A DNA stretch of 42,630 nt from an uncultured Verrucomicrobiota bacterium. Its GTDB lineage: Bacteria; Verrucomicrobiota; Verrucomicrobiia; Verrucomicrobiales; Akkermansiaceae. Positions within the stretch are counted from its first letter, which is position 1. Each line of letters begins with the position of its first letter. The stretch spans positions 1 through 42,630 of the forward strand of contig CALMKO010000084.1 in assembly GCA_937867415.1 (NCBI GenBank), given 5' to 3'. A model generated the notes under the pieces. That model saw only the letters and a program-made list of their open reading frames with translations. It did not search any database and was not told the DNA's origin. Positions 6,378 to 42,448 of the stretch are shown piece after piece. The position numbers and the translations under genes are program-made.

Positions 6378-9300
6378 ATGTCAAATGGCGGGCGACCTCG
6401 GCAAAGGCGGCACCAGGCTACCACCGCCCAAAGTGGCTTCGCTTTGATTGTGACACTCAGCCTGATGGTGCTGCTTGCCGTCATCGCCGTAGGTTTATTG
6501 GCGCTTTCCTCCATCTCCCTTCGTGCCTCGGCGACCGGCCAGGCCCAGGCCATGGCCCGGGCGAACGCGCGGCTCGCAATGATGTTGGCAATCGGGGAAC
6601 TCCAGAAGAGCATTGGTCCGGACCAGCGAATCACCGCACCATCGGGCATCCTCGATTCCGATCCCACCACCCCCGCCGAGAATGGCGTTTCTAACAAACA
6701 CCTCACCGGCGTGTGGAATGCGCGTGACGCCGCCACCGAAACCCTGGATCGCTACAACACCACAGCGCCCGACTACAACCGGGATAAACCAAACTTCCGA
6801 AGTTGGCTCGTTTCCAACGCAAAGCTGGAAGACGTCGAACAGCTCGGCTTCGCGAGCAATGGCGTCTTGATCAATCCAACCAATCTCCAAGGCTCCAGGA
6901 ACCCCGATCTCGTAGTCCGCGCCGGCAAAGTTCCAGTCAAGGGTGGTTCCTACGCATGGTGGGTGGGTGATGAAAACTGCAAGGCTCAGATCAATCGGCG
7001 CGATCGATTGGCCCGGCAAGGCAACCCCGCGATCACCGAACTGTTAGCAAGCTTCGGCTCGCCCGGTCCCCACGGGATCAAAGCTCTGGAAAAACACGAA
7101 CTCTTCGAATCCAACTCACCCTCCAGCGACAAAATCATCACCCGTGACTCGCTGGACATCCTTACTCCGCCTGGCATCCAACGCGGTGAATTGTTTCACG
7201 ACCTCACTCCCTACGCACGAAGCGTCCTAACCAACGTCACCACCGGCTCCCTCCGCAAAGATCTCAGCCTTTACCTTGAACGCAGCGACATCCACTGGCT
7301 GAGGGACTGGAAGAACCGGAATTGGCAGCAGCAGGGGCCGCTAGGACCCAACGGAAGGATCGCCCTCAGTCCCTTGGATGAGTATGACGTTCTGGCTTGG
7401 AAGACCCTTCATCACTATTATAACATGCACCGGCAAGTCAGCTACGTGGGCAACCGACCCAGGGTCACCGCGATCGACAGCAACCCGGTCACTCCCCCAT
7501 ACATCCCCATTGATCCGGTGAGTAACCCCGAGTGGAACAACGGCGTGACTTCCATCAATCCGGTGATCGTCCGCATGCAATACCTCTTGTCTTACGCTGT
7601 TAGAAAAAATGGCCAGGACTATGATCTCTTTGTTTACAGTTATCCCGTGGTCACCCTGTGGAACCCCTACAATGTCGACATGAGGATCAACGGTTATAAC
7701 ATCTGGCTCCACAACCTTCCCCTATCCCATAAAATCTACAGAAACAACGCCGCCACTCCGATCCGCGATTTCAACTGGAGATTCGATACCTCCCTGAACG
7801 GCGGCACCCTGGTCATGCGTTTCGGTCAGCCCGACGGAAGCCCTAATCAACCCATCCTTCTCAAGGCGGGCGAAATGAAGATCTTCAATCACAAAACCAG
7901 CGGTTACGGGCGCCGCGGCTATCCCGCCGCCAACATGGCGGAGAACACCGACGCCACCTCGTTCTACTCCACCGCCAATACCGGACACCCGAGGTTCGTT
8001 GGGAAAATCACCGGAGCACGGGAGACCGACACCATTGCGCTCGAAACAAGAATGGGCAACTCAAGAACCGTTGAGGAGACTTGGTCGGGATGGCAATCGA
8101 CCTTCGAGGTGCGCTCGGAACCGCGCGGCGACCACACCGGGCACGACGCCAGAATGAACAGACAATTGCTCAGCTCCAGCTACGCGTGGCGCTTCGAAGC
8201 CTCAAGCCCGACCTCCAACCAACTCTCCAAAGACAATTTTCCCGCCAAACCACTCCGAGAACTGGTAAATGCACCCACTCCGTTCTGCTTGACAGATGTC
8301 AGGCTGAAGCCGCTCGATGAGCTCCAGCTCCCGAATAAAACATGGCTGCACAACATGCCCGCACTCACCTATGCCGCATGCCATTCCACCACCCAAGGGG
8401 CCGATGCCAAGACGCCGTTTTTCAGTCACCCCTACACGGTGACCTTCGACCAGCGGACCACCGTGATCGGGCTCTTCTCGTCAATTCCCTACATGGGCCC
8501 CAGCTATACACCCGGCGGCCAGCGCTTCATCGCGGACCGGGAAATCCCCCAGGTGCCGCTCTGCTCGCTGGCCCAGTTGCAGAATCTGCCTCAGCAATCA
8601 ATGGAAGCCATGAACTGGAGCGGCCACCTCCAGCAAAACCATGCCATCGGCAACTCATATGCATCACCAGGCGTCCCCTCCGACAAAATCAAAAGCGGCG
8701 GGTGGCCATTTTACATCAACCCCTATATCAACTCCGGCGGCAATCTCGCCGGACAGACATTTCGAGATGATCAATGGACCTCAGGAATTCCTAACATTGA
8801 TCGGAGTTATGCTGCCAACCATCTGCTCTGGGATGAATTTTTCTTCTCATCCATCGCCCCACAAACCAGCACGTTCTATCAAAGATTCGGAAGAATCCGG
8901 ACACTCAAGACCGTGGTGGACGAATTCTATGGCGAAATCAAGGCGCTGCCCAATGAGGCCTATCTTCCCCATCTTGCGGGCATGAACGCCAAGACCGTTT
9001 CGGAATCCCTGATCAACCCGAGCGGTAACCCGCTCGCGAATGCCCACCTGAAATCCGCCGCACACCTGATCGTGGACGGCGGATTCAACATCAATTCGAC
9101 CTCCGTGCCAGCCTGGACGATCCTGCTTGCATCCAGCCACCTCAAGCGTCCCGTGATCATGGACTCCGCCGGCACCGGCACCCCGACGGCCCAGCCCCAA
9201 GGAAACTTCGCCGTCAGCCGCTTCGCCATGCCCATCGGTGGCGGCGGCGGCCGGATATCCGACGAAGGCACACGCTGGCGCGGCTACCGCGAGCTCACCG

Positions 9301-9857
9301 TGGATGAAATCCGCCAGCTGGCCGAAGCGGTCGTCCGGCAGGTCAAGCAGCGCGGACCATTCCGTTCCCTTGGCGAGTTCATCAACCGCCGCCTTGTCGC
9401 CAGCGACAACGAGATGGCACTCTACGGAGCACTCCAAGCCGCGCTGGAAGATCCCCGCGTCGATATGAACAAAGACTACCGCGACAAGAAAATCACCAAC
9501 GCTGACTTGAACGGCACAAACTATGTTTTCAAGCAAGCGGCGCTCGGCCCCCGTTATCAGGGAACTCCCGCCTACATTTCCCAAGCAGACATCCTGCAAC
9601 CGCTCGCGCCGGTCATCAACGCCCGTTCCGATTCATTCCTGATACGCACCTGCGGAGAATCTCTCGCGCCGGACGGAAAAACCGTCTTGGCCCGGGCTTG
9701 GTGCGAGGCGGTGGTGCAGCGCTATCCCGAATACATCAACCCGCAAGACCCTCCGGAAACTCCTTTCAACACCCCGGGCATTCTATCCGAAAACAAGATC
9801 TTTGGCCGCCGCCTCATGATCCAACATTTCCGCTGGCTCAGCCAGAATGAAATCTGA
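6378..9857 (+). CDS. pseudopilin-like giant protein, Verru_Chthon cassette protein A type (first copy)
   Basis: The frame opens at 6252, but ATG 6378 gives 1159 residues, close to the paralogue at 17290 (1192). It also places a short basic leader (MSNGGRPRQRR) directly before a prepilin-type N-terminus: G-F-A-L-I-V-T-L-S-L-M followed by about 20 hydrophobic residues. Position +5 after the cleavage Gly is Val, not Glu, as in GspK/PilX-type minor pseudopilins. Downstream come a Pro/Asn-rich body, a FNINSTSVPAW motif, a helical segment with RGPFRSLGEFINRRL, and a conserved C-terminus (QADILQPLAP, AWCEAVVQR, HFRWLSQNEI). These motifs recur in the second copy, so the two are paralogues. It is probably an inner-membrane-anchored, periplasmic or surface fibre-associated protein processed by a prepilin peptidase. 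The B, C and D cassette members do not follow. Function is unknown. Confidence 0.78.
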   Translation: MSNGGRPRQRRHQATTAQSGFALIVTLSLMVLLAVIAVGLLALSSISLRASATGQAQAMARANARLAMMLAIGELQKSIGPDQRITAPSGILDSDPTTPAENGVSNKHLTGVWNARDAATETLDRYNTTAPDYNRDKPNFRSWLVSNAKLEDVEQLGFASNGVLINPTNLQGSRNPDLVVRAGKVPVKGGSYAWWVGDENCKAQINRRDRLARQGNPAITELLASFGSPGPHGIKALEKHELFESNSPSSDKIITRDSLDILTPPGIQRGELFHDLTPYARSVLTNVTTGSLRKDLSLYLERSDIHWLRDWKNRNWQQQGPLGPNGRIALSPLDEYDVLAWKTLHHYYNMHRQVSYVGNRPRVTAIDSNPVTPPYIPIDPVSNPEWNNGVTSINPVIVRMQYLLSYAVRKNGQDYDLFVYSYPVVTLWNPYNVDMRINGYNIWLHNLPLSHKIYRNNAATPIRDFNWRFDTSLNGGTLVMRFGQPDGSPNQPILLKAGEMKIFNHKTSGYGRRGYPAANMAENTDATSFYSTANTGHPRFVGKITGARETDTIALETRMGNSRTVEETWSGWQSTFEVRSEPRGDHTGHDARMNRQLLSSSYAWRFEASSPTSNQLSKDNFPAKPLRELVNAPTPFCLTDVRLKPLDELQLPNKTWLHNMPALTYAACHSTTQGADAKTPFFSHPYTVTFDQRTTVIGLFSSIPYMGPSYTPGGQRFIADREIPQVPLCSLAQLQNLPQQSMEAMNWSGHLQQNHAIGNSYASPGVPSDKIKSGGWPFYINPYINSGGNLAGQTFRDDQWTSGIPNIDRSYAANHLLWDEFFFSSIAPQTSTFYQRFGRIRTLKTVVDEFYGEIKALPNEAYLPHLAGMNAKTVSESLINPSGNPLANAHLKSAAHLIVDGGFNINSTSVPAWTILLASSHLKRPVIMDSAGTGTPTAQPQGNFAVSRFAMPIGGGGGRISDEGTRWRGYRELTVDEIRQLAEAVVRQVKQRGPFRSLGEFINRRLVASDNEMALYGALQAALEDPRVDMNKDYRDKKITNADLNGTNYVFKQAALGPRYQGTPAYISQADILQPLAPVINARSDSFLIRTCGESLAPDGKTVLARAWCEAVVQRYPEYINPQDPPETPFNTPGILSENKIFGRRLMIQHFRWLSQNEI

Positions 9858-9876
9858 GACCTCGACTCTAACAATA

Positions 9877-10545
9877 ATGATCCGCATCCTTCTTGACATT
9901 CTTTTCATCACCCTGCTCTCCAACCAACTCTTTGCCCAACCCGGAAAGCAAGCGACTCAAATCAGCTTCTCCGTCACGCGCTTCGACCCCATGGATCGCC
10001 CCGCCCCTGACTTCGTGGTAAAAAATGGTAACAAGGAAACCGCGCTGCAAGCACCCCTCACCTACATCGCCGGCCCCTTCACCGCCACCTTGAGAGACGG
10101 TCAACACCTGGATTTCTTCGCACCCGGCGGCCTCCTGCCGGTCATCTCCACGGCGGTCCCGCCGGAATTACACAAAGACCTGCTCATCGTCTTCGTCCCG
10201 CAGAAGGAATCCTATGAGATCCTCAAAATCCATACGCCACCCTCCACAATCAAAGGCGGCGATCACTACGTGATCAACGCCGCCCCTCACGACGTCGCCA
10301 TCAAACTTGGCAGCCTTGATCCTGTGCTCATCCCATCCAAAAAATCAGCCCTTCTGCATGACGCCGCAGCAGGAAACGCCCTGACCTTACCCGTGATCAT
10401 CCGGCAAAAAGACGGCGAACAATGGAAGCTGGTCACCACCGAAAACTGGCCGCACGACACCCGCTTCCGAACGTTTCTCTTTCTATACACCTCCATGCGT
10501 GACCAGCACATGGCATTCCATGGGATCACCCAGCGCGTGGACTGA
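9877..10545 (+). CDS. secreted ~222-residue partner of the pseudopilin-like protein (first copy)
   Basis: A frame opens at 9847, overlapping the upstream stop, but ATG 9877 gives a clean signal peptide (MIRILLDILFITLLSNQLFAQ) and starts 19 bases after that stop. The mature protein is beta-rich with no cysteine cluster or enzyme motif I recognise. A core strand LLIVFVP, an Asn-containing strand (YVINAAPHDVAIKLG), a P-S-K-K-S turn and a C-terminal FRTFLFLY strand line up with the protein at 20914-21600 (ILLFFY, LIYNLSTAAVSAKLG, P-G-K-S, ARQFLFIV). The two are therefore distant paralogues, each directly behind a pseudopilin-like giant. I infer a periplasmic or extracellular partner of that protein. 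No known family name can be given. Confidence 0.8.
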   Translation: MIRILLDILFITLLSNQLFAQPGKQATQISFSVTRFDPMDRPAPDFVVKNGNKETALQAPLTYIAGPFTATLRDGQHLDFFAPGGLLPVISTAVPPELHKDLLIVFVPQKESYEILKIHTPPSTIKGGDHYVINAAPHDVAIKLGSLDPVLIPSKKSALLHDAAAGNALTLPVIIRQKDGEQWKLVTTENWPHDTRFRTFLFLYTSMRDQHMAFHGITQRVD

Positions 10546-10628
10546 ATCCATGGATCTTGTAATTCGAAATGAATCTGAATCCGCGCACGATCATCCAACT
10601 GGACCTCACCCTGAAACCTACCACTCTC

Positions 10629-12047
10629 ATGACACCACCTAAATTCCCAACGCTGTTAGCCACCATCCTGCTCACCGCCACCGTTCATGCGGAAATAGCT
10701 GCGGCACCCGCGCCGTTTCTGCCAGTTCCTAACCCGGCCCAACTCCGCTGGCACCGCGCGGAGTATATCATGTTCGCCCACTTCGGCATGAAAACCTACT
10801 ACCCGAGCAATGACCACCTCGGAGATGGCAACGAAGATCCCAAACGCTTCAATCCGGTCAAATACGACGCCAACCAGTGGGTCGCCGCCGCCAAGGCCGG
10901 CGGGTTCAAAGGCATCGTCCTGACCACCAAACACCACGACGGATTCTGCAACTGGCCCACCGACACCACTAACCACTCCGTCAAATCCTCGCCATGGAAA
11001 AACGGCGGGGGTGATATCGTCAAGGAACTCGCGGATGCCTGTCACAAGGGTGATATCTATTTGGGCCTCTATGTCTCCATCATCGACAAACATTTCGAAA
11101 AAGCCGGCTCGCCCAAGCACAGCGCCTACGGGGATTTCTACTTCGATCAACTCAAGGAACTCAGCACACGCTACGGCACCATCGATGAATACTGGTTCGA
11201 CGGCTTCGATTCGGAAAACCTCAAGATGGACTACCCGAAGATCGGCCGCATGATTGCCGAGACCCAACCCGAGGCCGTGGTCTATGATTCCGGCGTGTTG
11301 GTGAAGACCCTGCCCGACCGCTGTCTGGCCTGGCCTAACCAACACGGCGGCGTAAGCCCGGATCAGAACTACCGCACGGAAATCGACGGCGTGATGCGCT
11401 GGTATCCCAACGAGCCCTCCATCATCTTCCAAGGCAACTGGTTTCACACGGGTGAACCCGCTGTCAGCACCACTCAAATGCAGGAGGAATACCTCAATTC
11501 CACCGGCCACGGCGTGACGCCTCTCCTGAACTTCGCGCCGAATCAGGACGGCCTCATCGATGACGACGCCGTAGCCAAACTCACCGAATTCAAAGCCTGG
11601 GTGGACCGCATCCACTCCAACAACCTCGCCCGCCTACCCGGTGCGAAAACCACCGACACCGGCCACCGTGGCAACAACCAGAACTACGCCGCCGCCATGG
11701 CCACGGATGCCAATGACGAAACCTACTTCGCCACCGACGACAACGTCACCACCGCCGTCATCGAGGTGGAACTTGCCAAGGTCCAGCAACCCGCCGGCTT
11801 CATCATCCAGGAATATATTCCTTTGGGCCAACGCGTGGACGGCTACACCATCGAGTGCCGCGTGAATGGCAACTGGCAGAAGGTTTTCTCAGGAAAGAAA
11901 ATCGGCTACAAGCGCATCATTCACGCCGGTCGCTCCTCCGCCAAGGACCTCAAACTGCCGCCTTGCGATGCCGTGCGCCTCCGCATCGACAACTCGCTTG
12001 CATGCCCGCTGATCAACAACTTCCAAATCATCGGCACCGAGCCATGA
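10629..12047 (+). CDS. alpha-L-fucosidase, GH29, secreted
   Basis: GH29 enzymes release alpha-linked L-fucose by a retaining mechanism. ATG 10629 is preferred over 10569 because it begins a signal peptide (MTPPKFPTLLATILLTATVHA). The mature protein shows family hallmarks: WHRAEYIMFAHFGM near the N-terminus, KHHDGFCNW in the barrel, and EYWFDGF, whose Asp (residue 191 from this start) is the expected nucleophile. HFGM and the HHD motif line the fucose pocket in the family. After about residue 345 comes a discoidin-like C-terminal module (ATDANDETYFATDD, LRIDNS). Length 472 is typical. Its stop overlaps the next start (ATGA), so the two are probably translationally coupled. Linkage specificity and the general acid/base cannot be read from sequence alone. 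Confidence 0.92.
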   Translation: MTPPKFPTLLATILLTATVHAEIAAAPAPFLPVPNPAQLRWHRAEYIMFAHFGMKTYYPSNDHLGDGNEDPKRFNPVKYDANQWVAAAKAGGFKGIVLTTKHHDGFCNWPTDTTNHSVKSSPWKNGGGDIVKELADACHKGDIYLGLYVSIIDKHFEKAGSPKHSAYGDFYFDQLKELSTRYGTIDEYWFDGFDSENLKMDYPKIGRMIAETQPEAVVYDSGVLVKTLPDRCLAWPNQHGGVSPDQNYRTEIDGVMRWYPNEPSIIFQGNWFHTGEPAVSTTQMQEEYLNSTGHGVTPLLNFAPNQDGLIDDDAVAKLTEFKAWVDRIHSNNLARLPGAKTTDTGHRGNNQNYAAAMATDANDETYFATDDNVTTAVIEVELAKVQQPAGFIIQEYIPLGQRVDGYTIECRVNGNWQKVFSGKKIGYKRIIHAGRSSAKDLKLPPCDAVRLRIDNSLACPLINNFQIIGTEP

Positions 12048-14371
12048 CCCGGAAGCGGGAGGCGTTTAAGACAAGCACCCGCCGCGCGGCTCCGCTTCAT
12101 TTCCGCTCAGGCCGCTGGGACATCCCGATCCATGGCGTGGGAGGCGGATTGCTGCTCGGCTTCGGATTATCCGTCGCTCCATTGGTGGCCGCTGATTTTT
12201 TTGTCAGTCCGCATGGCTCCGATCAACATCCAGGAACCCTGGACTTGCCATTTGCCACGTTGCACCAGGCGGTCAGGGCCCTCAAACCGGGTGATGTCTG
12301 TTATCTGCGGGAAGGCGTCTATCGGGAAGTCCTGCGTCCCATGACATCCGGCGCTCCCGGCAAGGAAATCACCTTCACCCCCTATCGGAACGAACAAGTC
12401 ATCCTGACCGGTGCGGACCCGATAGCGGGTGGAACTCACGAATCCGATGGCAGCTACTCGGCCCCCATGCCCTGGTCACTCGACGACGGCAACCAGGTTT
12501 TCGCTGATGGAGAAATGCTCACCGAAGCATGTTGGCCGAACCCGGGCGAAAGCGCGCTTTTCCAACCGATTCGCGCGGTGGCGGCGGCCGGCAGTGAAAC
12601 CAGCCTCGTCTGCCCCGAGATCCCGGGTCCCGCGGATGCATGGAAGGGCGCACAGCTCTGGTGCGCGGGCGGCTCGGCATGGATCTGTTGGACGTCGACG
12701 GTCACCTCATATGATGAAATGACCCACACGCTGACCTTCGACAAGGCCCGGGAATCCTGGTATACGCCGACACGCGGCAGCCAATTCTCCTTGCGCGGCA
12801 TTCGTGCCGCCATGGACGCCCCCGGCGAATGGATTTACGACACCCGGCAGAAACGCATCATCCTCATTCCTCCCGCCCGAAAAGCAGGTGCCAAGACAGT
12901 TTCACTCGAGGCCAAGCGCCGCATGGACGTGATCGACCTGGCGGGTTTGTCCCACATCCACATTCATGGAATCCAGTTCCGCGCCGGGGGCATCCGGATG
13001 GACAAGAACTCCTCGCATCTTGTTCTGAAAAACCTGAGGGGCAAGCATGTTTCCCACTCCTATCAGAATAACACCAGCACCCATTCCGGCGTGCTGATTG
13101 ATGGGAAAAACAACCTGCTGCTGAATTGCGAGCTCGGCTATAGCTCCTCTTCCGTGCTGAGCGTGACCGGCGAGGATCACCGCATCATCAATTGTCATAT
13201 CCATCACGGAGGTTACGCCGGATTATGGCGGGGCACCGTGAGCCTTTCCGGCCGGAGGATCCTCTTCAGCCACAACACCGTCCAACACGCTGGCAGAGAT
13301 CTGGTCAACACCCATGGCCTGATGGAAAGTCTCGTGCAGTTCAATCAAGTTTCGGATGCCGGTTGGCTGACCAAAGACCTCGGAATGTTCTATGGGCACA
13401 ACACCGACTACGCCAACACCCGGTTTTGCTACAACCTAGTCCATGACAACCATGCGGACCACTGTGCGATGGGTATCTATTTCGACCACCTGAGCCACAA
13501 CGCCATCGTCGATCACAATGTGATCTGGAACGCCGCGTCCGACCCGATCCGTATCAACAACCCGAGCTATAACTGCCTCGTGTTTCACAATTCCTGCTGG
13601 CAATCCGGTGGGGTCACCACCTTCGACCATACCAAGCGCAATGATCTCTTCGGCTCACGCTTTACCTGGAACATCTTTAACCAACCCATCCAGCTGCCTG
13701 CTCACGTCATCCTCGCAAACAACCTGGTCTCCGCCACGCCACCATATGCCGATGCCGCGAAGCAAGATTTCCGCATCGCCGCTGGCCATGGACATCAAGC
13801 GGGTGCCTACCCGCCGGGTGCGCCCCCTTGGAAAGCCGGTTGTGATTTGAATGATCCCCCCACCCCGCTTCCCGTGTATGTGGCACCTGCCATCCCATGG
13901 ATGAACGCCATCCAAAACGCCTGTTTCGAATTTGGAACCCTCGAAGCATGGCAGCGAACCGATGCGGAGAATGCGCTCCTGGTTACTGGCAATGGCTGGG
14001 GGAATAACCATGGAAAAACAAACGAACACGCCACCGGCACTTCAAAACATGAACTCAGGCTAGGCCCCGGGCGCGACGGCGTCAGGCAACTCATCCGCGG
14101 GCTTCTTCCCGATACCCGCTACACCCTTTCCGCTTGGGCGAAGGTTTCTGCCGGGGAGACGCTCGTGCTTGCAGTGAGCGGCCACGGCGCGCCGCCGGTG
14201 GAGGAGACGCTCGCGTCATCAGAATGGAAACGCCTGAGCATCGAATTCAAGACCGGTTCCCACGCCCATGAAGCCATGATTTTCCTCCTGAAGTCTTCTC
14301 ACGGAAACGGCTCAGCCTGGTGCGACAATCTCACCTTGCCCATGACGCCGGAATCAACGGACCCGCGATGA
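12044..14371 (+). CDS. secreted right-handed beta-helix protein with C-terminal carbohydrate-binding module
   Basis: A start at 11855 would lie inside the fucosidase gene; ATG 12044 overlaps the fucosidase stop by four bases and is preferred (775 residues). The N-terminus has an unusually long basic n-region of about 30 residues before a Gly/Leu-rich hydrophobic segment ending near VAA. Next comes FFVSPHGSDQHPGT, the entry strand of DUF1565-type parallel beta-helix carbohydrate-active proteins, and right-handed helix coils to about residue 580 (HIHIHGIQFRAGG, HRIINCHIHHGGYAGL, NAIVDHNVIW). Residues about 620-775 resemble a CBM4/9-22-type jelly roll (NACFEFGTLEAWQR, TRYTLSAWAKV, AWCDNL). It is likely a glycoside hydrolase or lyase acting on the same glycan as its neighbours. 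The CAZy family was not identified. Confidence 0.82.
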   Translation: MTRKREAFKTSTRRAAPLHFRSGRWDIPIHGVGGGLLLGFGLSVAPLVAADFFVSPHGSDQHPGTLDLPFATLHQAVRALKPGDVCYLREGVYREVLRPMTSGAPGKEITFTPYRNEQVILTGADPIAGGTHESDGSYSAPMPWSLDDGNQVFADGEMLTEACWPNPGESALFQPIRAVAAAGSETSLVCPEIPGPADAWKGAQLWCAGGSAWICWTSTVTSYDEMTHTLTFDKARESWYTPTRGSQFSLRGIRAAMDAPGEWIYDTRQKRIILIPPARKAGAKTVSLEAKRRMDVIDLAGLSHIHIHGIQFRAGGIRMDKNSSHLVLKNLRGKHVSHSYQNNTSTHSGVLIDGKNNLLLNCELGYSSSSVLSVTGEDHRIINCHIHHGGYAGLWRGTVSLSGRRILFSHNTVQHAGRDLVNTHGLMESLVQFNQVSDAGWLTKDLGMFYGHNTDYANTRFCYNLVHDNHADHCAMGIYFDHLSHNAIVDHNVIWNAASDPIRINNPSYNCLVFHNSCWQSGGVTTFDHTKRNDLFGSRFTWNIFNQPIQLPAHVILANNLVSATPPYADAAKQDFRIAAGHGHQAGAYPPGAPPWKAGCDLNDPPTPLPVYVAPAIPWMNAIQNACFEFGTLEAWQRTDAENALLVTGNGWGNNHGKTNEHATGTSKHELRLGPGRDGVRQLIRGLLPDTRYTLSAWAKVSAGETLVLAVSGHGAPPVEETLASSEWKRLSIEFKTGSHAHEAMIFLLKSSHGNGSAWCDNLTLPMTPESTDPR

Positions 14372-14753
14372 AATCTCTGGAGCATGTGACCAGATCCCGA
14401 AGGCTTCACCCGCCGGAACACAATTCTCTGCACGACGCCGCGGTGTCCGTGCACAAGTTGTCGCCCGAAATGCAAGCGGTGTCGTTGATTGCCGGCTCCT
14501 GCTGGTCTACCCTAACACATCACGAGGTGATTTCGGAACCATTCGGATTCACCAGCAACTATTGTTGCCCTGCCGCCCGCGAGCCACCCTGACCTCACCA
14601 TGAAACCACGTCCTGAAGATTCTATTCCATCGAATAGGCCCCGGCTCCCCGCTCCGCTTTCAACCTTCAAGCGTTGATCGAAAGCCCGCGACCTTCTCCG
14701 CCACCATGCCAGCACCCCATCATATTTTACCCCGATCCCATACCATTCTACCG
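14372..14753 (+). other. gap inside the seven-gene unit
   Basis: These 382 bases between the two beta-helix genes are the only large gap in the unit. A 75-codon frame starts at 14368 with an ATGA overlap, but its product (MKSLEHVTRSRRLHPPEHNS and on) matches nothing I know and has no signal peptide. A small hairpin, CTATTC-CATC-GAATAG, lies at 14622-14637 without a T-run. The ATG at 14706 is in frame with the next gene but gives a poor signal peptide. A second promoter in this gap is possible; I could not identify one. Confidence 0.4.
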
Positions 14754-17258
14754 ATGATCCAAAATCTGCCCCTTGCCATTTGTTGCTCCACCCTGATCGG
14801 GATGGCGTGCCCGTCATTGCTTGCCCAGGCTGAACAGACGCTGCCTCGTGAATTCTTTGTCTCGCCCACCGGTTCGGACGCCAACCCCGGAACCCGCAGC
14901 AGTCCATTTCAAACGCTTGAAAAAGCACGGGACTCCGTTCGTGCGGCAATTCCTTCAGCGCAAGGCGACATCATGGTGACCATCCGCGGCGGTATCTACC
15001 CGGTCCGCAAAACCATCGTCTTCAACCACCAGGATTCCGCACCAGGCAAGCAACGCATCACCTACCGCGCTGCTGCCGGGGAAAAACCGCTGTTCACCGG
15101 CGGCGTGCCCGTGACAGATTGGAAGCCTTACAAGGATGGCATCTGGAAGGCGCCGCTGGACCGCTCCGAAAAACTCCGCTCCCTCTATGTGGACGAGTCC
15201 CGCGCCGTCATGGCTAACAGCGGAAAAAAAATCCGCGCCCAAGGGGGATGGGGCACATACACCGTCACCGCAGGACAGGCACCCTGGGCCTGGCAAAGCG
15301 GCCAAACCGCCGACGGCATCCAATACAACGTATCCGATCTCCCCAAGATCACCCATAACATCTCGGATGTCGAGATCGAGAACCAGACGACCTGGAACAA
15401 AAACTTCGTCGGCATACGGGAAATCGCCACCGAGGGCGACAAGTATATCTTCAAACTCCAACAACCCTACGGTGCCATCGCCCAGCAAATCGGTTGGGAC
15501 GCAGGGCTCACCCTCAAGAGCGAGCAAATCATCCACAACGCCCTCGAACTCCTTGATCAACCCGGTGAGTTCTACTTCGATCGCGATGAAAAAACCGTCT
15601 ACTACATCCCACGCGCCGGCCAGAACATGCAGACGGCCAAGGTCGTGGCCCCCGTCACACAAACGCTCCTCCAACTCGAAGGCAAGCCCATCAAAAACCG
15701 CCTCCGCAACCTCACATTTGAAGGACTCAGCTTTGCCTACACCGACTATAACCTCATGGAGATTGATGGTTCCCACGGCACGGCCACCCTCCAAACCGCC
15801 TGTATCAACACCGCGTTTGCCAATCCCAACTGGCATTATGATGTTTACCGCTCCTACGATGTCCTTCCAGCCGCGATCATTGCAAATGCCGTCGAAGGAG
15901 TTGAACTCAAACGTAACACGATCGCCCACACCGGCTGCCAGGGCATCGTCATGAGCAACGACATCCACGACGTCCGCATCATCGGCAACTTCATCCGCGA
16001 CACCGGCGGAAGCGCCATCACCCTGGGCCATCCTCAGCACGTATACGAAAACGACACACCCGACCTCAAACATCCGGAAGGCGCAGGCATCGAACACGAA
16101 AAATTTCCCGCGGGCACCGAGTCGATCCCGCACCGTGTTTTGATATCCAACAATTTCCTGCCAGATAACTCAGCACTCTTCAACGGCCACACCATTATCA
16201 CGGTCTTTTTCTCAAAACACGTGAAGATCGAACACAACTGGATCGAAAACGCACCCTATACCGCCATCCATCTCGGCTGGGGTTGGTGCGATTTCGACGG
16301 CTACGAGGGCACCAATCACCCGCAATGGGGAAAAGCGCCGCGGCCATCGGTTTTTCCCGGCAAGCCAACATCAGTCGCCGGAAACAATCGGGTGGGGGCA
16401 AACCGCATCGAACGCTCAATGACCATCCTCGACGATGGGGGCGGCATCTACACACTCGGCCGCCAGCCCGGCACCCTCATCGACCGCAACTACATCCGCA
16501 GCACCACCTTCGGAGTGTATAATGACGAGGGATCCACCGGGATCGTCAACCGCGCGAATATCGTTCAGGGGCCCTATCAACGGGTTCACACCACCGGAGA
16601 CCACGGCCGCAAACACGACATTGACATCGAAGGATACTACGTCACGGATGATGTCTGGTTCGTTTCCTCACCTAACACCCGCGTCACCAACAACACCATC
16701 TGCCCCAACGCGGTTTGGCCGCCCCAAGCGCAGGCGATCATCCACGAAAGCGGCCTCGAACCGGAGTATAGAAACATCGTTCCAGCCGATTGGCAGCCTT
16801 ACAACTTTGATCTCGAGGGAGTGGATCCGGAATGGGCAACGGGGGCCGTCGACTTCGCCGTTCCCGGCACGCCCAGCGAATCCTCGCGGCTCGTTTCCCA
16901 GAAAGGTTCTCAAACTGGTCCGGCCAACGGCAGGATATTCCGCCAAGGCGATGAGCTCTGCTATCGAATGAAATTTCCCGTTGGTAAGAAATCCCAGCTT
17001 GTCGCTACCTACTGGGGCGAGGAAGGAAACAAGCGCAGATTCAGAATCTATATCAACGACCAGCTTCTCGCCACCCAGGAACTATACCAAGCGCATCCGG
17101 GGAAATTCTTTGACCAGGCTTACCCGATCCCACCCGCCATGCTTCCCGCCGGAACCCACGGCGAAACCACCTACGCAGTCATCCGCTTCACCGTCGAGCC
17201 AGACGGTGGCACCGTTGGCGGACTGTTCGGACTCAAGGTATTACCCCTGCCACAGTAG
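14754..17258 (+). CDS. GH141-like parallel beta-helix hydrolase with DUF6805 tail
   Basis: ATG 14754 begins a signal peptide ending SLLAQA; total 834 residues. The mature N-terminus (FFVSPTGSDANPGTRSSPFQTLEKARDSV in outline) and a GGIYPV strand open a right-handed beta-helix of about 315-620. The stretch ILDDGGGIYTLGRQPGT (558-574), followed by VYNDEGSTGI (588-597), is characteristic of GH141-type proteins, which include an alpha-L-fucosidase and xylanases; the Asp pair 560-561 and Asp 591 are catalytic candidates. Residues about 705-834 resemble DUF6805, found as a C-terminal beta-domain on glycan hydrolases (VATYWGEEGNKRRFRIYIND, YPIPPAMLPAG). Next to a GH29 fucosidase, a fucose-containing substrate is a reasonable inference. 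Family assignment is from memory of motifs, not a search. Confidence 0.72.
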   Translation: MIQNLPLAICCSTLIGMACPSLLAQAEQTLPREFFVSPTGSDANPGTRSSPFQTLEKARDSVRAAIPSAQGDIMVTIRGGIYPVRKTIVFNHQDSAPGKQRITYRAAAGEKPLFTGGVPVTDWKPYKDGIWKAPLDRSEKLRSLYVDESRAVMANSGKKIRAQGGWGTYTVTAGQAPWAWQSGQTADGIQYNVSDLPKITHNISDVEIENQTTWNKNFVGIREIATEGDKYIFKLQQPYGAIAQQIGWDAGLTLKSEQIIHNALELLDQPGEFYFDRDEKTVYYIPRAGQNMQTAKVVAPVTQTLLQLEGKPIKNRLRNLTFEGLSFAYTDYNLMEIDGSHGTATLQTACINTAFANPNWHYDVYRSYDVLPAAIIANAVEGVELKRNTIAHTGCQGIVMSNDIHDVRIIGNFIRDTGGSAITLGHPQHVYENDTPDLKHPEGAGIEHEKFPAGTESIPHRVLISNNFLPDNSALFNGHTIITVFFSKHVKIEHNWIENAPYTAIHLGWGWCDFDGYEGTNHPQWGKAPRPSVFPGKPTSVAGNNRVGANRIERSMTILDDGGGIYTLGRQPGTLIDRNYIRSTTFGVYNDEGSTGIVNRANIVQGPYQRVHTTGDHGRKHDIDIEGYYVTDDVWFVSSPNTRVTNNTICPNAVWPPQAQAIIHESGLEPEYRNIVPADWQPYNFDLEGVDPEWATGAVDFAVPGTPSESSRLVSQKGSQTGPANGRIFRQGDELCYRMKFPVGKKSQLVATYWGEEGNKRRFRIYINDQLLATQELYQAHPGKFFDQAYPIPPAMLPAGTHGETTYAVIRFTVEPDGGTVGGLFGLKVLPLPQ

Positions 17259-17289
17259 CACGCCGCAGGGACTAGACCTATTCCAAGTT

Positions 17290-20200
17290 ATGAACTCACC
17301 CCTCGCCATCGATCACACACCACCTGAGCACCTCCCGCACCCATCGGAAAAGGGCTTCGCGTTGGTGGCCACGCTCAGCCTGATGATTCTGCTCACCATC
17401 ATCGCGGTGGGTCTGCTCTCGCTTTCAAGTATCTCACTCCGCGCCACCTCATCTTCGCATGCCATGAACCAGGCAAGGGCGAATGCAAGAATGTCCATGA
17501 TCATGGCGGTGGCCCAGCTTCAATCGCTCTCGGGCCAGGACACCCGGGTCACGGCCAGTTCACAGCTCCGGACTCCTTCCAGCGTCCCAACGACCGGTGT
17601 CTGGAGAAGCTGGGAAGGGAACGATCATGCCGCAGACGGCAAGCCAATCCGGCCCGATTACGCATCCAAGAACCGCCCTGGTGATCCATCCGTCCCGCCT
17701 GAGCGCGCCTCCAACAACACCGGTCGGTTCCTTGGCTGGTTGACATCCACAGCTGCCGCAGCCACACCGGATGCCAATCGAATCCCGGATGTGGCATCTA
17801 CAGGTGCTCCGGGATTGGTGAAGCTCGTCGCAGAAGGTAGCGCATCCGCCAGCCATCACCACGTATTCATGAGACCAACCATGATCCATGACAACCAAGG
17901 CTCCATCGCCTGGTGGACCAGTGGTGATAACTCAAAAGCGATGATCAACATCGACCGCGAGGCACAAGCATCCTCGATCGTGCAATCGCAGCAACGGGTG
18001 AGAAGCAACGGCCGGGCCGATGCCGAAACATTCGGCCTGGGAGCAATCGATAGTGATCCCGGCACTTATCCGCCGGGCCGCAAGGAGCTTCCCAGCACCG
18101 GCAATCTCAAGCTGGCGGCTCCCAGGCAGGATCTGCGGAAGATTCACGATCTTACCGCTTATAGCAAAGGGCTTCTTACCAATACCGCCACCGGTGGCTG
18201 GAAAAAAGATCTTTCCATCATGAGTGAGAATTACGCATCCTTGCCTGCTGCGAACCTCCCGTTTTTCACAATCGCGCCCGGCAGGGATTTACTCTATACC
18301 AAAAGCCAGCCAACCGGAACCGGTGGAAGACCTTTACTATACCCTTGGGACAACTATCGTGCCGGCGGGTGGTGGGCGGCATCACCTCCGATCTCCAGTT
18401 GGAACGCATTGGTCAACTATACCCAGCAATACCGGAACTTCCCCCCGAATGCACAACCGGCGAGGACGGCGATGAGGCAAGGTGCCGCCTTTGGCCGGCC
18501 TGATGACCGGGTCGGATTCAATGAACAAGTACGCAGAATCCCGCAACTCGCACGAATCCAGTGGATCTATTCCATCGGCTCGCGCAGGGTGCCAGGCACG
18601 GATCCTTCAGCCCCGGCAACCTATAATCCCGGCATCCTTGTCACCCCGGTTCTTACCCTCTGGAATCCATATAATGTCGAGATGACGGTTAACAATTATT
18701 GGGTGGCCGTTCGCTACCAGCCCAATCCCCTCGAATTTGAAATGAGATTCAACCGCGGCACCCCGTGGAGATTCGCCAGCAGGAACTTCATGACAGATCG
18801 AACACGGATCAATGAAATCTACTTCCACTTGTTGATCAGCAATCCATTCACACTCGCACCGGGCGCTACCATGATCTTCTCGCTTGCCAACAGAAACCCA
18901 GTGGTCAACCCGGCCAGTACCGATCTGCTATTGCAGCCCGGCTACACTTCAGGCGGTGGCAATCTATACACCCGGATCGGCCCCACAAGGAATGAAATCA
19001 CCGCCACAGCCTCGGATCATTTTGAAATTTCAAGAATCACCTATGAAAGAACCGACGTCCGGGACTGGGGCGGTAATGGCGAAGGCTTCGGAATGTTTTT
19101 CAATGTGATGGTCAACGCTCCCAGCCTGAACACCGCGGGTTATAGTGATGACACGGGGACCGCGGTGTATATCACGCCCCATCGGATGAGAGTCGCGCCA
19201 TTCAGCGGTCTCGGAGGCGATGCCGCGTTCTCAAGAATCTATCCACCGATCACCAGCCCTGTTTCCAGGCCTGTTTCCTCGATCGATGTCGCCACCATGA
19301 ATGCCAGACCTTTTGCCACGGCATTGTTTGGCTACCGCGCTGTCAGCCCGTTTTTTGCCGGAAGCAGGTTCCGGCATTTGTATTCGAAAGGGCTGCTGCA
19401 AACCAATCCTCTTTGCGGCTATACGGATGATACGGGCTATCCCCTGCGGGCACCTTACAGTTTTGCATTTATGGAAATGGATGGCTGGAACACGGATGCC
19501 GCCCCGGAGTTTGAGAGATCTACCAATAGCAGCTATATCGTCTCCGGCCTCAATTCGCGCAACGGGCTCACCCGCTGCGTCATGGTGGAGTTGCCAACCC
19601 GACCTTTGCAGAGCCTTGCGGACTTGCAGCACTTTGATGCACGAAACAACAATCCGCACCCCCCGCATCAACTCAACCTCATCGCCAACGGCTCCGCGCA
19701 TCCGCAATTCGCGCCGGTGCAAGCGATCGGAAGCGACAAGTCGAACGACGACAGCTTCTTGCTGAACCATTTGCTTTTCGATGATTGGTTTTGCTCGTCC
19801 ATTGCGGATGACGTCACCGATTTTGGATCAGCTTCCGAGCGGACTGCGGAGCAGGTTTACCAGGATCATCTCACGCGGACCCAGCCCTTGCCAAACCGCC
19901 TCTACGAACCGGCGCCCGGCGCAGCCTCCCCGAATCTGCGTGATTCGGTCGCGGAAGCGGCTGTCTCCGGCGCGAGGGCTGGCGTCCCGGACTCCGTAAC
20001 CGGGAAGTTCTCCTTCGAATCCATCGCGTCCAAGCTGGTGGTCAACGGCATGTTCAACATCAACTCCGTCTCACTTGAGGCGTGGAGGTCCATTCTCCGT
20101 CAAAGTCGGGAAACGGCGGTGCCCTATCTGGCGGCAGATGGCAGCACGCGGCTTGGTGCCAGAACATCATTCTCATACCCACGGACGTCCATTGCTGGCG

Positions 20201-20868
20201 ATCAGGGATCCAATTCCGGATCCACGGATTCAAACCCCTTGTTTCCCGGCGCTGCGGAGTTCGCCGGCCATCGGGTGCTTACCGAGGTTCAAATCGACGC
20301 CCTAGCGGAACTCATTGTTGGAGAAATCCAAAGGCGCGGCCCGTTTTTGTCACTTGCAGAATTCACGAACCGCCAACTCACCAGCGACAGGGATCTGGCC
20401 ATCGCTTCACCCGTGCAGCGGGCACTTGATCGGCTTGCAGCGCTGGGGCCATCCGAGAGGAATCCTTTCGCCGGAATCCAGTCGATTGCCCAGGAGATTA
20501 CCGAACCGGCGCCGGGGATTCCCGGCTATGGATTCCCGGAGGCCGCTTTGGGATCCTCCGCCTTCGGAGTCCCCGGCTGGATCCGCCAGGCGGACATTCT
20601 AAGACCACTTGCTCCGATCATTTCAGCCCGGGATGACACCTTCACCATCCGCGCTTACGGGGATTCACGCGATCGCGCGGATCCATCCAAGATCGTGGCC
20701 AAGGCATGGTGTGAGGTCGTTGTCCAGCGGCAGGCCGCCTATGTGGATCCCATTGACTCCGCCGCAGTCGCCCCTTATTCGACCTCCATGTCGTCCCCGG
20801 TCAACAGGCGCTTTGGGCGCCGCTATCAGATCGTTTCGTTCCGGTGGCTCGTCGATTCGGAAATCTAA
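17290..20868 (+). CDS. pseudopilin-like giant protein, Verru_Chthon cassette protein A type (second copy)
   Basis: The frame is open from 16981, but that part overlaps the upstream gene; ATG 17290 (31 bases after its stop) gives 1192 residues. After a 22-residue leader ending E-K-G comes FALVATLSLMILL and a membrane segment very like the first copy, again lacking Glu at +5. Shared landmarks follow in the same order: TRVTASSQL, LTLWNPYNVEMTVN, LVVNGMFNINSVSLEAW, RRGPFLSLAEFTNRQL, QADILRPLAPIISARDDTF, KAWCEVVVQRQ and FRWLVDSEI. Between landmarks the two copies have diverged widely, so this is not a recent duplication. Predicted to be cleaved by a prepilin peptidase and anchored in the inner membrane or a pseudopilus. 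Role unknown. Confidence 0.8.
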   Translation: MNSPLAIDHTPPEHLPHPSEKGFALVATLSLMILLTIIAVGLLSLSSISLRATSSSHAMNQARANARMSMIMAVAQLQSLSGQDTRVTASSQLRTPSSVPTTGVWRSWEGNDHAADGKPIRPDYASKNRPGDPSVPPERASNNTGRFLGWLTSTAAAATPDANRIPDVASTGAPGLVKLVAEGSASASHHHVFMRPTMIHDNQGSIAWWTSGDNSKAMINIDREAQASSIVQSQQRVRSNGRADAETFGLGAIDSDPGTYPPGRKELPSTGNLKLAAPRQDLRKIHDLTAYSKGLLTNTATGGWKKDLSIMSENYASLPAANLPFFTIAPGRDLLYTKSQPTGTGGRPLLYPWDNYRAGGWWAASPPISSWNALVNYTQQYRNFPPNAQPARTAMRQGAAFGRPDDRVGFNEQVRRIPQLARIQWIYSIGSRRVPGTDPSAPATYNPGILVTPVLTLWNPYNVEMTVNNYWVAVRYQPNPLEFEMRFNRGTPWRFASRNFMTDRTRINEIYFHLLISNPFTLAPGATMIFSLANRNPVVNPASTDLLLQPGYTSGGGNLYTRIGPTRNEITATASDHFEISRITYERTDVRDWGGNGEGFGMFFNVMVNAPSLNTAGYSDDTGTAVYITPHRMRVAPFSGLGGDAAFSRIYPPITSPVSRPVSSIDVATMNARPFATALFGYRAVSPFFAGSRFRHLYSKGLLQTNPLCGYTDDTGYPLRAPYSFAFMEMDGWNTDAAPEFERSTNSSYIVSGLNSRNGLTRCVMVELPTRPLQSLADLQHFDARNNNPHPPHQLNLIANGSAHPQFAPVQAIGSDKSNDDSFLLNHLLFDDWFCSSIADDVTDFGSASERTAEQVYQDHLTRTQPLPNRLYEPAPGAASPNLRDSVAEAAVSGARAGVPDSVTGKFSFESIASKLVVNGMFNINSVSLEAWRSILRQSRETAVPYLAADGSTRLGARTSFSYPRTSIAGDQGSNSGSTDSNPLFPGAAEFAGHRVLTEVQIDALAELIVGEIQRRGPFLSLAEFTNRQLTSDRDLAIASPVQRALDRLAALGPSERNPFAGIQSIAQEITEPAPGIPGYGFPEAALGSSAFGVPGWIRQADILRPLAPIISARDDTFTIRAYGDSRDRADPSKIVAKAWCEVVVQRQAAYVDPIDSAAVAPYSTSMSSPVNRRFGRRYQIVSFRWLVDSEI

Positions 20869-20913
20869 CGGTCGCGGTTCCCTTTTTCTGCTGTTCTAAC
20901 GTATTTCATCGGT

Positions 20914-21600
20914 ATGCATCACCATCTATTCACGATCCACGCTTTCTGTTTCTTCCTGACGGGCAACCTCGTTACCGCGAAATGCAGCACCAAGGCCATC
21001 TTCATTCAACCGCCCGGCGAGGTCCCTGAAACCGCCGTGCTTTGTGTAAACAAGGAGTTTATCGATCTCAAGCTACCCAAGCGCCACCTTTCGGACCCCA
21101 TCGATTTAGATTCGGGCAAGACTGTCATCTTTGTCATTCCACAGCGGCCTTCCGGACCGGATATCCCGCTGGGAGCTCCGCAGTTCACTATTCCTGAAAC
21201 GTGGACCAGTTGCATTTTGCTCTTCTTCTATGACGCCGAAAACAAGCTCTTTCCGGCGCGGATCATCCCTGTGAATACGTCCAGCGCCGATTTTCCGATG
21301 GGAAACACCCTGATCTATAATCTATCAACTGCTGCTGTTTCCGCCAAACTCGGCACGGAATTTGTGAGAGTGTTTCCTGGTAAATCAGCGGTTGTAAAAC
21401 CTCCGCGTTCAGGTTCGGGAGACTATCCGGTTGATATTGATTGTGCCTTCCCAGGGGACAAGCAACCCACTGCCCTGTCCCGTTCCTCATGGCACCATGA
21501 GGCGAACGCCCGGCAGTTTCTTTTCATCGTCCCACAAGCCGAATCCAAGGTTCCCCGCGTTTGGGGGGTCCTCGATCACAACGAATCCAACGCATACTAG
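20914..21600 (+). CDS. secreted ~228-residue partner of the pseudopilin-like protein (second copy)
   Basis: Starts 45 bases after the second pseudopilin-like gene. The N-terminus (MHHHLFTIHAFCFFLTGNLVTA) is a plausible but weak signal peptide. The rest is beta-rich with no recognised enzyme motif. Strands ILLFFYDAENKLFPARIIPV, LIYNLSTAAVSAKLG and ARQFLFIVPQ match the order and spacing of the equivalents at 9877-10545, including Asn in the middle strand and L-G at its end. It ends VWGVLDHNESNAY. The repeated position behind the giant protein suggests an obligate pair. Last gene of the unit; transcription converges with the PDZ gene. Confidence 0.8.
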   Translation: MHHHLFTIHAFCFFLTGNLVTAKCSTKAIFIQPPGEVPETAVLCVNKEFIDLKLPKRHLSDPIDLDSGKTVIFVIPQRPSGPDIPLGAPQFTIPETWTSCILLFFYDAENKLFPARIIPVNTSSADFPMGNTLIYNLSTAAVSAKLGTEFVRVFPGKSAVVKPPRSGSGDYPVDIDCAFPGDKQPTALSRSSWHHEANARQFLFIVPQAESKVPRVWGVLDHNESNAY

Positions 21601-23195: not shown

Positions 23196-23219
23196 CTTCG
23201 TATATTCTTTCGTTAGGGA

Positions 23220-25376: not shown

Positions 25377-25421
25377 AGAGTTAAATATATCACGATTTTT
25401 GGTATGTTCCAGTTGAAATAG

Positions 25422-25454
25422 AAACTCCCGCAATGAAATTCATTGCGGGAGTTT
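25422..25454 (-). terminator. strong hairpin, terminator between barrel and kinase genes
   Basis: A perfect 16-base inverted repeat (AAACTCCCGCAATGAA and its complement) around one central base. On the minus strand the right arm ends GTTTCTATTT, so it can act as an intrinsic terminator about 60 bases after the beta-barrel gene stop. On the plus strand the T-run is short. It lies 45 bases upstream of the kinase start, so the kinase gene either has its own promoter between 25377 and 25421 or relies on read-through. Confidence 0.82.
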
Positions 25455-41290: not shown

Positions 41291-42448
41291 CTACGGCATC
41301 CCCAGCGGCGCAAGCGTCGCCATATACCATTCCCAAATCCGCCATGCACCAAACAACCAGGCCGCCGCACCCATCGCCAAAAATGGACCGAACGGCAGCT
41401 GCTTGCCAAACCCAATGCGTCCGATCACCGCCGCGACAATCGCAAAAACCGATGCACCGAACAGCGAGAAAAACACCCCGCTCCAGCCGAAAAACGCGCC
41501 GATCATTCCCAACAAATGCACATCCCCCATCCCCATCGCCTCGCGCGGGATCACCGTGCTGGTCGCGCTTCCATCCAGCGACTTGATCTTCGATAGGGCA
41601 TGCACCGTCCCGTCCGGCAGTTGGATTTCCGTGTCGCGGATGATCAAGGTCCCCGCAGCCACCGCCTCACCGCTCACCCGGATCTCGGTGGCCTCCACGA
41701 TGAGACGATCCGACTTCCGAGAAAAAATATCCCACCACGCGATTCCCTCGCCATCGATGACGAACTCCATCGGATCCTGATCGTTCTCCGGTTCCTTCAA
41801 GTGCCAGTCCACTGCCTTGTCGAACTTCAGCGCCTTTTTCCCGAATGCCATTTTCCCAAACTCGACCACCAACCACAGCCCAAGGAAACCCGCGAGCCAA
41901 CCCATGACACCTTGTTTCAGCCCCTCCAGCCAGTTTCCCGCCTCACCGGCCAGCACCGGCAACTGCGGCCACACCATACAAGCCCCAAGCCCCAGGACCG
42001 AGCCCGCCCACGTCAGCGAAGTGGGGATGATCAAGTGCTCGGCATCGATGAATGTGATCGACACCAACAAGGCCATCAGCACCCACAAGAACACGATCAC
42101 CCCGATCGATTGCGAGGCGAACAGCCACCACACCACGGTGAAAAGAATCGCCGTAAGCAGCTCCACACCGAAGTAGCGGAAAGCGATCGGAGCCGCACAT
42201 TCCCTACATTTTCCCCGCAACCAAAGCCAGCTGATCATGGGAAAATTCAGCCACATCGGAATTGGCTTTTTACAAAGCGGGCAGAACGAACGCTTCGGCT
42301 CATTCACCGACATCCCCAGCGGAACCCGATAAATGACCACGTTTAAAAACGAACCGATGCAAGCGCCGATCAGAAAGGCCGGAACCAGCCAAATCCAATG
42401 CTCAAAGGATGGGTAAAATAATGAGTCAGGCAAAGCTCCGCCATTCAA
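41291..42448 (-). CDS. prepilin peptidase (A24) with ~100-residue insertion
   Basis: Membrane aspartyl protease that cleaves, and often methylates, prepilin-type signal peptides. The N-terminal part has GACIGSFLNVVIYRVP (28-43) and a zinc site of four cysteines (CPLC 56-59, CREC 81-84). Catalytic Asp135 lies in FIDAEHLIIP and Asp309 in GMGDVHLLGMIG, the two A24 motifs. Between them, residues about 203-303 form a soluble, beta-rich insert (VDWHLKEP, IVEATEIRVSGEAV, RDTEIQLPDGT) not seen in PilD or GspO of proteobacteria. It is the likely processing enzyme for the pseudopilin-like giants elsewhere in the window; the link is inferred. Confidence 0.93.
   Translation of the reverse strand: MNGGALPDSLFYPSFEHWIWLVPAFLIGACIGSFLNVVIYRVPLGMSVNEPKRSFCPLCKKPIPMWLNFPMISWLWLRGKCRECAAPIAFRYFGVELLTAILFTVVWWLFASQSIGVIVFLWVLMALLVSITFIDAEHLIIPTSLTWAGSVLGLGACMVWPQLPVLAGEAGNWLEGLKQGVMGWLAGFLGLWLVVEFGKMAFGKKALKFDKAVDWHLKEPENDQDPMEFVIDGEGIAWWDIFSRKSDRLIVEATEIRVSGEAVAAGTLIIRDTEIQLPDGTVHALSKIKSLDGSATSTVIPREAMGMGDVHLLGMIGAFFGWSGVFFSLFGASVFAIVAAVIGRIGFGKQLPFGPFLAMGAAAWLFGAWRIWEWYMATLAPLGMP

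Follow-up and report, generated by a model that had tools for sequence, protein, structure and literature searches.

Giant GspK-like proteins and a small partner form a widespread two-gene module in Verrucomicrobiota

Here we describe a gene pair that occurs twice in a 42,630-nucleotide stretch of DNA (hereafter the window; contig CALMKO010000084.1 of assembly GCA_937867415.1) from an uncultured bacterium of the family Akkermansiaceae, phylum Verrucomicrobiota. Each pair joins a gene for a very large protein with a prepilin-type N-terminus (the giant) to a gene for a small protein close downstream (the partner), and giant and partner together are a widespread two-gene module. The body of the giant, as modelled for the first copy, resembles GspK and XcpX, minor pseudopilins at the tip of the type II secretion system (T2SS) pseudopilus (3CI0 chain K, 5VTM chain X). 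The pairs stand in several copies per genome, often beside enzymes that degrade sugar polymers, which suggests that these bacteria swap tips on one shared machine.

The giant and its partner as a unit

The genome to which the window belongs (4.9 Mb in 470 contigs, 95.75% complete; the window genome) encodes giants at nine places, one of which is truncated at a contig end. Behind each of the eight intact giants, on the same strand and with an overlap or a short gap, stands a gene for a protein of some 225-265 residues. A profile built from relatives in named genomes only finds all eight of these partners, with 54.7 to 225.9 bits, including those on contigs C2 and C217, which were first picked by position and later matched by this profile. 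It also joins the two window partners (106.7 and 169.0 bits), which are barely alike in pairwise comparison (19% identity, E 2e-4). Gene tables throughout are from longest-open-reading-frame calling and not from a gene finder, and identifications made by eye rest on N-terminal sequence only.

Of 24 genomes, the window genome and 23 relatives, 18 have giants and 16 have partners. A listed giant lies no more than 1 kb upstream of 97 of the 116 partner matches, an undercount given that the giant listing in these genomes is incomplete; the other 19 are without a listed giant upstream (13 on contigs without any listed giant), and 32 of 124 merged giants are without a listed partner. When the named loci are taken together with those of the window genome, a partner stands behind 81 of the 87 giant open reading frames (ORFs) that are complete at the 3' end and leave 900 bases downstream. 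Along the plus strand, the number of partners that follow a giant is one in 69 cases, two in 10 and three in 2. The 78 named loci come from the best 80 of 258 hits and were found via peptide patterns of the N-terminal helix; their titles name Akkermansiaceae, Verrucomicrobiaceae, Prosthecobacter, Akkermansia, Haloferula and the like. Among them, the record of Haloferula sp. BvORR071, which bears no MAG label, has the module at L120 and L138. These counts bear out an earlier note on this DNA, which had proposed a two-gene module; because of the 81 of 87 and 97 of 116 pairings, the objection that partner homologues might mostly stand without a giant fails.

A relative assembled in one contig (G004) has the partner in all 12 giant loci fetched. 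Two partner matches there (G004:C1:411457-412113 and 1655485-1656159) each contain one in-frame TGA and are perhaps decaying copies.

The two genes have also been inherited together. Giant and partner trees (n = 80) mirror each other with r 0.92, the best of 2000 shuffles reaching 0.10, and the nearest neighbour is identical in both trees for 53 of 80, a likeness that includes shared species history. Among 387 genomes of the phylum, in searches that scored the first 7 and first 2 candidates per genome, a partner match was obtained in 65 and a giant match in 93; all 65 are among the 93 (Fisher p 7e-52), and the partner matches span 35 of 197 genera. A further 20 loci were picked by hand for spread, all except that of genome G135 from partner-positive genomes, so that their 19 of 20 is not a free estimate. 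The G135 locus (L202) carries two divergent giants and no partner that the profile finds; a 285-residue gene behind the second, with a signal peptide by eye, scores 3.1 bits, which would fit either an unrelated protein or a strongly diverged partner.

Copies from distant genomes intermix in a tree of 55 giants, which drew warnings on long branches and odd composition. The two giants of the window fall in different clades of this tree, and a local duplication of the pair was rejected for that reason.

Fold and kinship of the two proteins

An AlphaFold model of giant 1 built with 77 sequences (predicted local distance difference test, pLDDT, 79; predicted template modelling score, pTM, 0.86) superposes on GspK of enterotoxigenic E. 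coli (PDB 3ci0_K) with Z 11.3 and a root-mean-square deviation (rmsd) of 3.1 over 237 aligned residues of a 280-residue target, and on XcpX (PDB 5vtm_X) with Z 11.2 and rmsd 3.0 over 219. All other structural matches have Z 3.9 or less, and the giant sequence gives no GspK match among PDB sequences up to E 1. On this evidence giant 1 models as a GspK-like minor pseudopilin into which a large variable stretch is inserted; in the alignment the GspK-like core is conserved and residues 301-700 vary. Between the two window giants, BLAST aligns residues 54-511 of the first ORF at 30% identity and 850-1201 at 34% (E 2e-47) and returns no alignment for the middle region.

The leader agrees with this assignment, GspK being a pseudopilin that lacks the Glu at +5 (Glu5). 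In alignment A6, Gly at -1 and Phe at +1 are present in 77 of 77 giants and Glu at +5 in none of the 77, a motif partly fixed by the search, since a peptide pattern containing GF was used to retrieve the named loci; among 51 giants found by profile instead, -1 is Gly in 49, +1 is Phe in 44 and +5 is Glu in none. The giants thus share with GspK and XcpX a prepilin-type leader without Glu at +5, the modelled fold of the body and, in the operonic relatives described below, a place behind prepilin genes. They differ in being about four times as long as the solved chains, by virtue of the large variable region, in occurring as several dispersed copies per genome, and in being followed by the partner. 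We know of no T2SS operon that includes the partner gene.

The partner has no Pfam or NCBIfam match, and its best hit among PDB sequences is 6fwv_A at E 0.42. An AlphaFold2 (AF2) model of partner 1 (pLDDT 91) consists of an N-terminal helix followed by beta strands, which form two beta-sandwich lobes. Its best structural match is the extracellular domain of PepT2 (7pmy_A; Z 13.2, 176 aligned, rmsd 3.3), and AlgF (6d10, Z 8.5, one lobe) and transthyretin are further likenesses of its C-terminal lobe. With the PepT1/PepT2 extracellular domain and the AlgF lobes the partner has a fold in common, whereas a sequence relation was not found, and a shared fold shows no function. Because a hydrophobic N-terminal stretch is present in 81 of 82 partners and a lipobox-like motif in 6 of 82, most partners are taken, from their sequences, as exported and soluble.

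Genomic setting: pseudopilin operons, glycan loci and the window

Relatives in which the giant stands in an operon were sought among loci picked from the giant-match list. The loci examined, 13 in number and with weaker-scoring giants, comprise ten of family f9 (same class) and three of other families (L227-L229). Prepilin genes lie beside the giant in 10 of the 13, that is in all ten f9 loci, and a partner follows the giant in 11 of the 12 with an uncut end; the f9 giants are shorter (962-1040 residues where complete). In L215 four prepilin genes precede the giant, with best matches to GspG, to GspH (then cassette D), to cassette B (also GspI) and to cassette C, where the cassette letters are those of the Verru_Chthon cassette; every best match is below its own cut-off, and three of the four genes exceed the cut-off of the general prepilin model. 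From these best matches we infer that the letters correspond as A = K, B = I, C = J and D = H, so that the row would read G-H-I-J-K-partner, with the partner in sixth place. In the giant tree, a branch with support 99 sets apart nine giants labelled operonic, along with those of L227-L229; branches are long in that region.

Such prepilin genes are rare beside the dispersed pairs. The E5 prepilin motif occurs in 25 genes of the operon-order loci (at least one false by eye, L222:3-1223), in 0 of 90 genes around the giants of the window genome, in 1 of 123 in G004 and in 4 of 761 in the named loci, where two of the four are false by eye. In two loci (L109:13560-14282 and L110:5360-6082) a prepilin gene with a GFTLVE motif adjoins a pair in opposite orientation.

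A prepilin trio H-I-J does occur elsewhere in the window genome, on contig C86 behind a galE-like gene (by eye), and is shared with G004 (42, 50 and 52% identical). No K gene stands behind the trio in either of these two genomes, the two looked at. Outside each other, the best matches of the trio J proteins are f9 J proteins (E ~1e-5). In this lineage a putative base thus lacks its tip and numerous putative tips lack a base, and there are 2 secretin matches for 9 giants in the window genome. Contig C410 (L040 862-4757, minus strand) encodes an 882-residue K-like pseudopilin, a different and shorter protein that is a weak match in the giant search. Two small proteins are encoded behind it, of which one has a signal peptide as judged by eye and the other matches the partner weakly (E 5e-4); the named-only profile gives these small proteins 14.0 and 9.3 bits, and the set is possibly a third version of the pair.

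Glycan-hydrolase genes are near six of the nine giants of the window genome: both window pairs and the giants of C313 (GH43, GH16), C2 (GH43), C217 (GH43, raffinose-synthase-like, GH9, GH116, SASA, LacI) and C251 (GH106, two GH29). Twenty neighbours were picked by hand for this Pfam scan; the three scanned at C215 have F5/8C and PATR domains and no GH, the one at C56 has PATR, and none was scanned for C255. In G004, 5 of 12 giants have a LacI-type regulator within 5 kb, against 0.63 expected (p 0.0014), and 8 of 12 have a sulfatase within 15 kb, against 4.0 expected (p 0.03, from the 63 of 79 sulfatase matches that were listed). By neighbour, LacI-type genes make up 5 of 76 and sulfatases 5 of 76; in controls sulfatases make up 1 of 92, and the LacI type is not among the control families listed. 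Among the genes nearest the pairs in the named loci, PATR domains occur in 8 of 96 and sulfatases in 5 of 96, with at most one each in 68 far-end control genes, a comparison that is suggestive only, as 96 of 116 nearest genes were scanned (the longest were dropped) and the 25 commonest families listed. Two of the same 96 genes match N_methyl and two match SBP_bac_10. The immediate neighbours of the giants in the named loci are diverse, and the link to glycan-degrading and PATR proteins is partial: real in places, not a rule.

In the window itself (Table 1), the earlier note's account of two giants, each with a small protein close behind, is matched by all four ORFs, and the GH29, beta-helix and GH141-like genes that it placed between the pairs are confirmed by Pfam. 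Its further description of one strand with short gaps or overlaps applies except in one place, where 334 bases separate 14371 from 14706. The start of partner 1 is either ATG 9847, overlapping giant 1 by 11 bases, or ATG 9877, leaving a gap of 19; partner 2 begins 45 bases past the end of giant 2. The ORF of the beta-helix protein is open from 11855, and its probable start at ATG 12044 gives a 4-base overlap with the GH29 gene. A prepilin peptidase of the A24 type, as would be needed to cleave the leader of the giants, is also encoded here.

Table 1. Features of the window, with the giant-partner pairs and the genes between them first and other genes below
Feature	Position	Strand	Basis or remark
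Giant 1, GspK-like minor pseudopilin as modelled, 1159 aa from ATG 6378	6378..9857	+	ORF open from 6252
Prepilin-type site of giant 1, G20/F21, Glu absent at +5	within 6378..9857	+	sequence
Partner 1, predicted two-lobed beta-sandwich protein, N-terminal helix taken as signal peptide	9847..10545	+	AF2 pLDDT 91
GH29 alpha-L-fucosidase-like protein with F5/8C domain	10569..12047	+	PF01120 119.6 bits (cut-off 25.2), PF00754 33.0 bits
Right-handed beta-helix protein with CBM4_9	12044..14371	+	PF13229 30.6 bits, PF02018 28.3 bits
GH141-like protein	14706..17258	+	PF21231 GH141_M 42.5 bits (cut-off 27)
Giant 2, putative GspK-like minor pseudopilin, 1192 aa from ATG 17290	17290..20868	+	ORF open from 16981
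Partner 2, of partner 1's profile family	20914..21600	+	profile match
Prepilin peptidase (A24)	41291..42448	-	PF06750 105.1 bits, PF01478 46.6 bits; ~20 kb from second pair
1791-residue protein with PATR repeats and PA14, cadherin and 3-keto-disaccharide hydrolase domains	447-5822	-	divergent from giant 1
Polysaccharide export protein and Wzz/AAA chain-length-determinant genes	22635-25433	-	
tRNA-Gly (tcc) gene	27513-27586	-	

A tip-exchange mechanism and its alternatives

The pair as a unit, the modelled folds, co-inheritance, the operonic relatives, dispersal and, in two genomes, the K-less trio provide the computational ground for a mechanism. We suggest, at what we judge to be even chances, that the pairs are exchangeable K-partner tip modules for a shared pseudopilus, serving local cargo or substrates. 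Each pair would make up a free-standing tip module for a pseudopilus like that of type II secretion. The leader of the giant would be cut by prepilin peptidase and its helix would pack at the end of the pseudopilus, with the GspK-fold body bearing the large, fast-changing insertion. The partner would be exported by Sec and would most likely bind its own giant in the periplasm as a chaperone, cap or cargo adaptor. The H-I-J trio may supply the common base on which assembly takes place, and alternative K-partner modules, encoded in glycan loci and probably regulated with them, would plug onto it; a given tip might then, through its insertion or its partner, choose the cargo or substrate and so recruit, export or display the locus's own secreted proteins. 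In its most specific form, to which we give somewhat less than even credence, this would be a cartridge-style secretion in which one K-less H-I-J base per genome takes any of about a dozen interchangeable GspK-like tips, every tip having a partner of its own and sharing location and regulation with the glycan locus that supplies the proteins it exports or displays.

Published work on related systems, consulted in extracts of each paper, bears on such a role. XcpX is placed on top of the T2SS tip complex, which is described as critical for substrate recognition and binding (PMC6211770), so that exchange of the tip would be a sensible route to new specificity. The verrucomicrobial Verruconatronum alginivorum has a PulG-like pseudopilin with 67 homologues, one of them in an alginate cluster and reportedly up-regulated on alginate (one proteome replicate per treatment), and the T2SS was proposed to export its alginases (PMC13274419). 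This resembles the present case in that a pseudopilin is multiplied and one of its genes is within a glycan cluster, and differs in that the protein is PulG-like; neither a GspK-like giant nor a partner is described in the extracts of that paper. Pilins and pseudopilins are enriched in two Verrucomicrobiae populations (PMC12487129), and PilB of Streptococcus sanguinis is a bimodular type IV pilin (PMC8179133), alike in placing a functional module on a pilin and different in belonging to a type IV pilus, with no GspK or partner gene mentioned in the extracts of that paper.

Several observations weigh against the tip-module reading. Of the 93 giant-bearing genomes of the phylum, 28 have no partner match at E 1e-5; L226, a locus from one of these 28, has a partner by iterated profile. 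Foldseek alone ranks 3ci0_K first for giant 1 but at E 0.09, and the curated GspK model NF037980 gives the two giants 22.1 and 21.1 bits, with matches confined to the N-terminus (profile positions 1-65 and 1-71); because its cut-off of 130 is missed, we use the label GspK-like and not GspK. The giants of L227-L229, in the operonic clade, adjoin no prepilin gene. The link between trio and f9 runs through J in a database of a few dozen prepilins, in which H reached E 0.02 at best and I gave nothing useful. Contig C124 of the window genome resembles by eye an ordinary T2SS pseudopilin operon with a 312-residue GspK, and C410 holds a third pseudopilin set; since these are present too, it is not proven which machine accepts the giants. 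As regards glycan genes, sulfatases lie within 5 kb of 3 of 12 giants in G004 (1.9 expected, p 0.29, again from the 63 listed matches), and the far-end genes of the named loci include GH116, GH106, GH30 and GH130. The coupling to carbohydrate-active enzymes that the earlier note proposed therefore stands in part, for six of nine giants in the window genome and for the LacI enrichment in G004, and is not significant for sulfatases at 5 kb.

The same note had described the giants as Verru_Chthon cassette A-like, with the partner replacing members B, C and D. This likeness extends to the N-terminal helix, where the giants match TIGR02600, and ends there: the two window giants reach 14.8 and 23.6 bits where the cut-off is 332.3, 0 of 8 matches in the window genome are over cut-off, the GspK-like assignment fits better, and a profile-profile comparison with six canonical cassette A members aligns 69 N-terminal columns and no more. 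Giants and cassette A do have in common their length, the helix, a verrucomicrobial host and, in the operonic relatives, a pseudopilin context. The giant profile weakly finds canonical A in 5 of 8 canonical loci fetched (E 4e-7 to 6e-6), prepilin genes adjoin canonical A in several loci (L194-L197, by eye), and a remote common origin is likely. However, canonical A proteins are over cut-off in 2 of 145 genomes, the partner profile has no match up to E 1 in their 8 loci (from 2 genomes), and in canonical cassette L194, where three prepilins can be recognised by eye, the partner finds no match. Replacement of B, C and D by the partner is contradicted by the f9 loci, which hold prepilins, giant and partner in one row, and by the H-I-J trio elsewhere in the window genome. 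We consider it highly improbable that the giants are cassette A proteins with such a replacement. One locus of canonical type, L195:7958-14182 (minus strand, genome G018), contains a 2074-residue ORF of which the start resembles a separate secreted protein (by eye) and the later part is canonical A over cut-off, either a fusion or a case of a stop missing between neighbours.

A different role on the cell surface, in which nothing is exported, has stronger claims, although we think it unlikely. The giant might cap a type IV pilus-like fibre as an adhesin or sensor, with the variable insertion binding polysaccharide and the partner serving as a cap or second binding lobe, so that the pair would fix the cell to its food and be co-regulated with the enzymes. 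The LacI association and the glycan loci near giants would fit this, as would the structural neighbours of the insertion (lamin-tail Ig, GH2-sandwich and CBM3), but these have Z under 4 and are too weak to weigh, the nearest solved folds of the core are those of GspK and XcpX from the T2SS, and in the operonic order the giant follows prepilins with best matches to GspG and GspH. It seems less probable again that the pairs are redundant GspK-like copies, spread by transfer and duplication without specificity, with the partner as the giant's folding chaperone. Such house-keeping multiplication could account for the mixing of distant genomes' copies in the giant tree, for the in-frame stops in some partner copies and for the diversity of immediate neighbours; the non-random placement near LacI-type regulators in G004, the frequent glycan loci in the window genome and the long co-inheritance of giant and partner seen in the mirrored trees argue otherwise.

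A description of a GspK-like giant with a partner was not found in the literature searched, which did not cover most subscription papers. In full-text searches there was no paper on Verru_Chthon or TIGR02600 and none joining Verrucomicrobi, GspK and glycoside hydrolase, and PMC13274419 alone joins a pseudopilin with polysaccharide utilization loci.

Substrate choice by type II secretion is an old open question. Genomes with many natural variants of the tip subunit, several of which adjoin differing sets of secreted enzymes, would make the role of the tip testable by swapping, and the partner adds a family without a Pfam or NCBIfam match that is tied to a tip subunit in 65 of 387 genomes and has a confidently predicted fold. 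If the cartridge-style reading is true, secretion specificity would be set by the swapping of tips and not by signals that one fixed machine reads. The pair could also help to explain specific export in Verrucomicrobiota with many secreted glycan-degrading enzymes.

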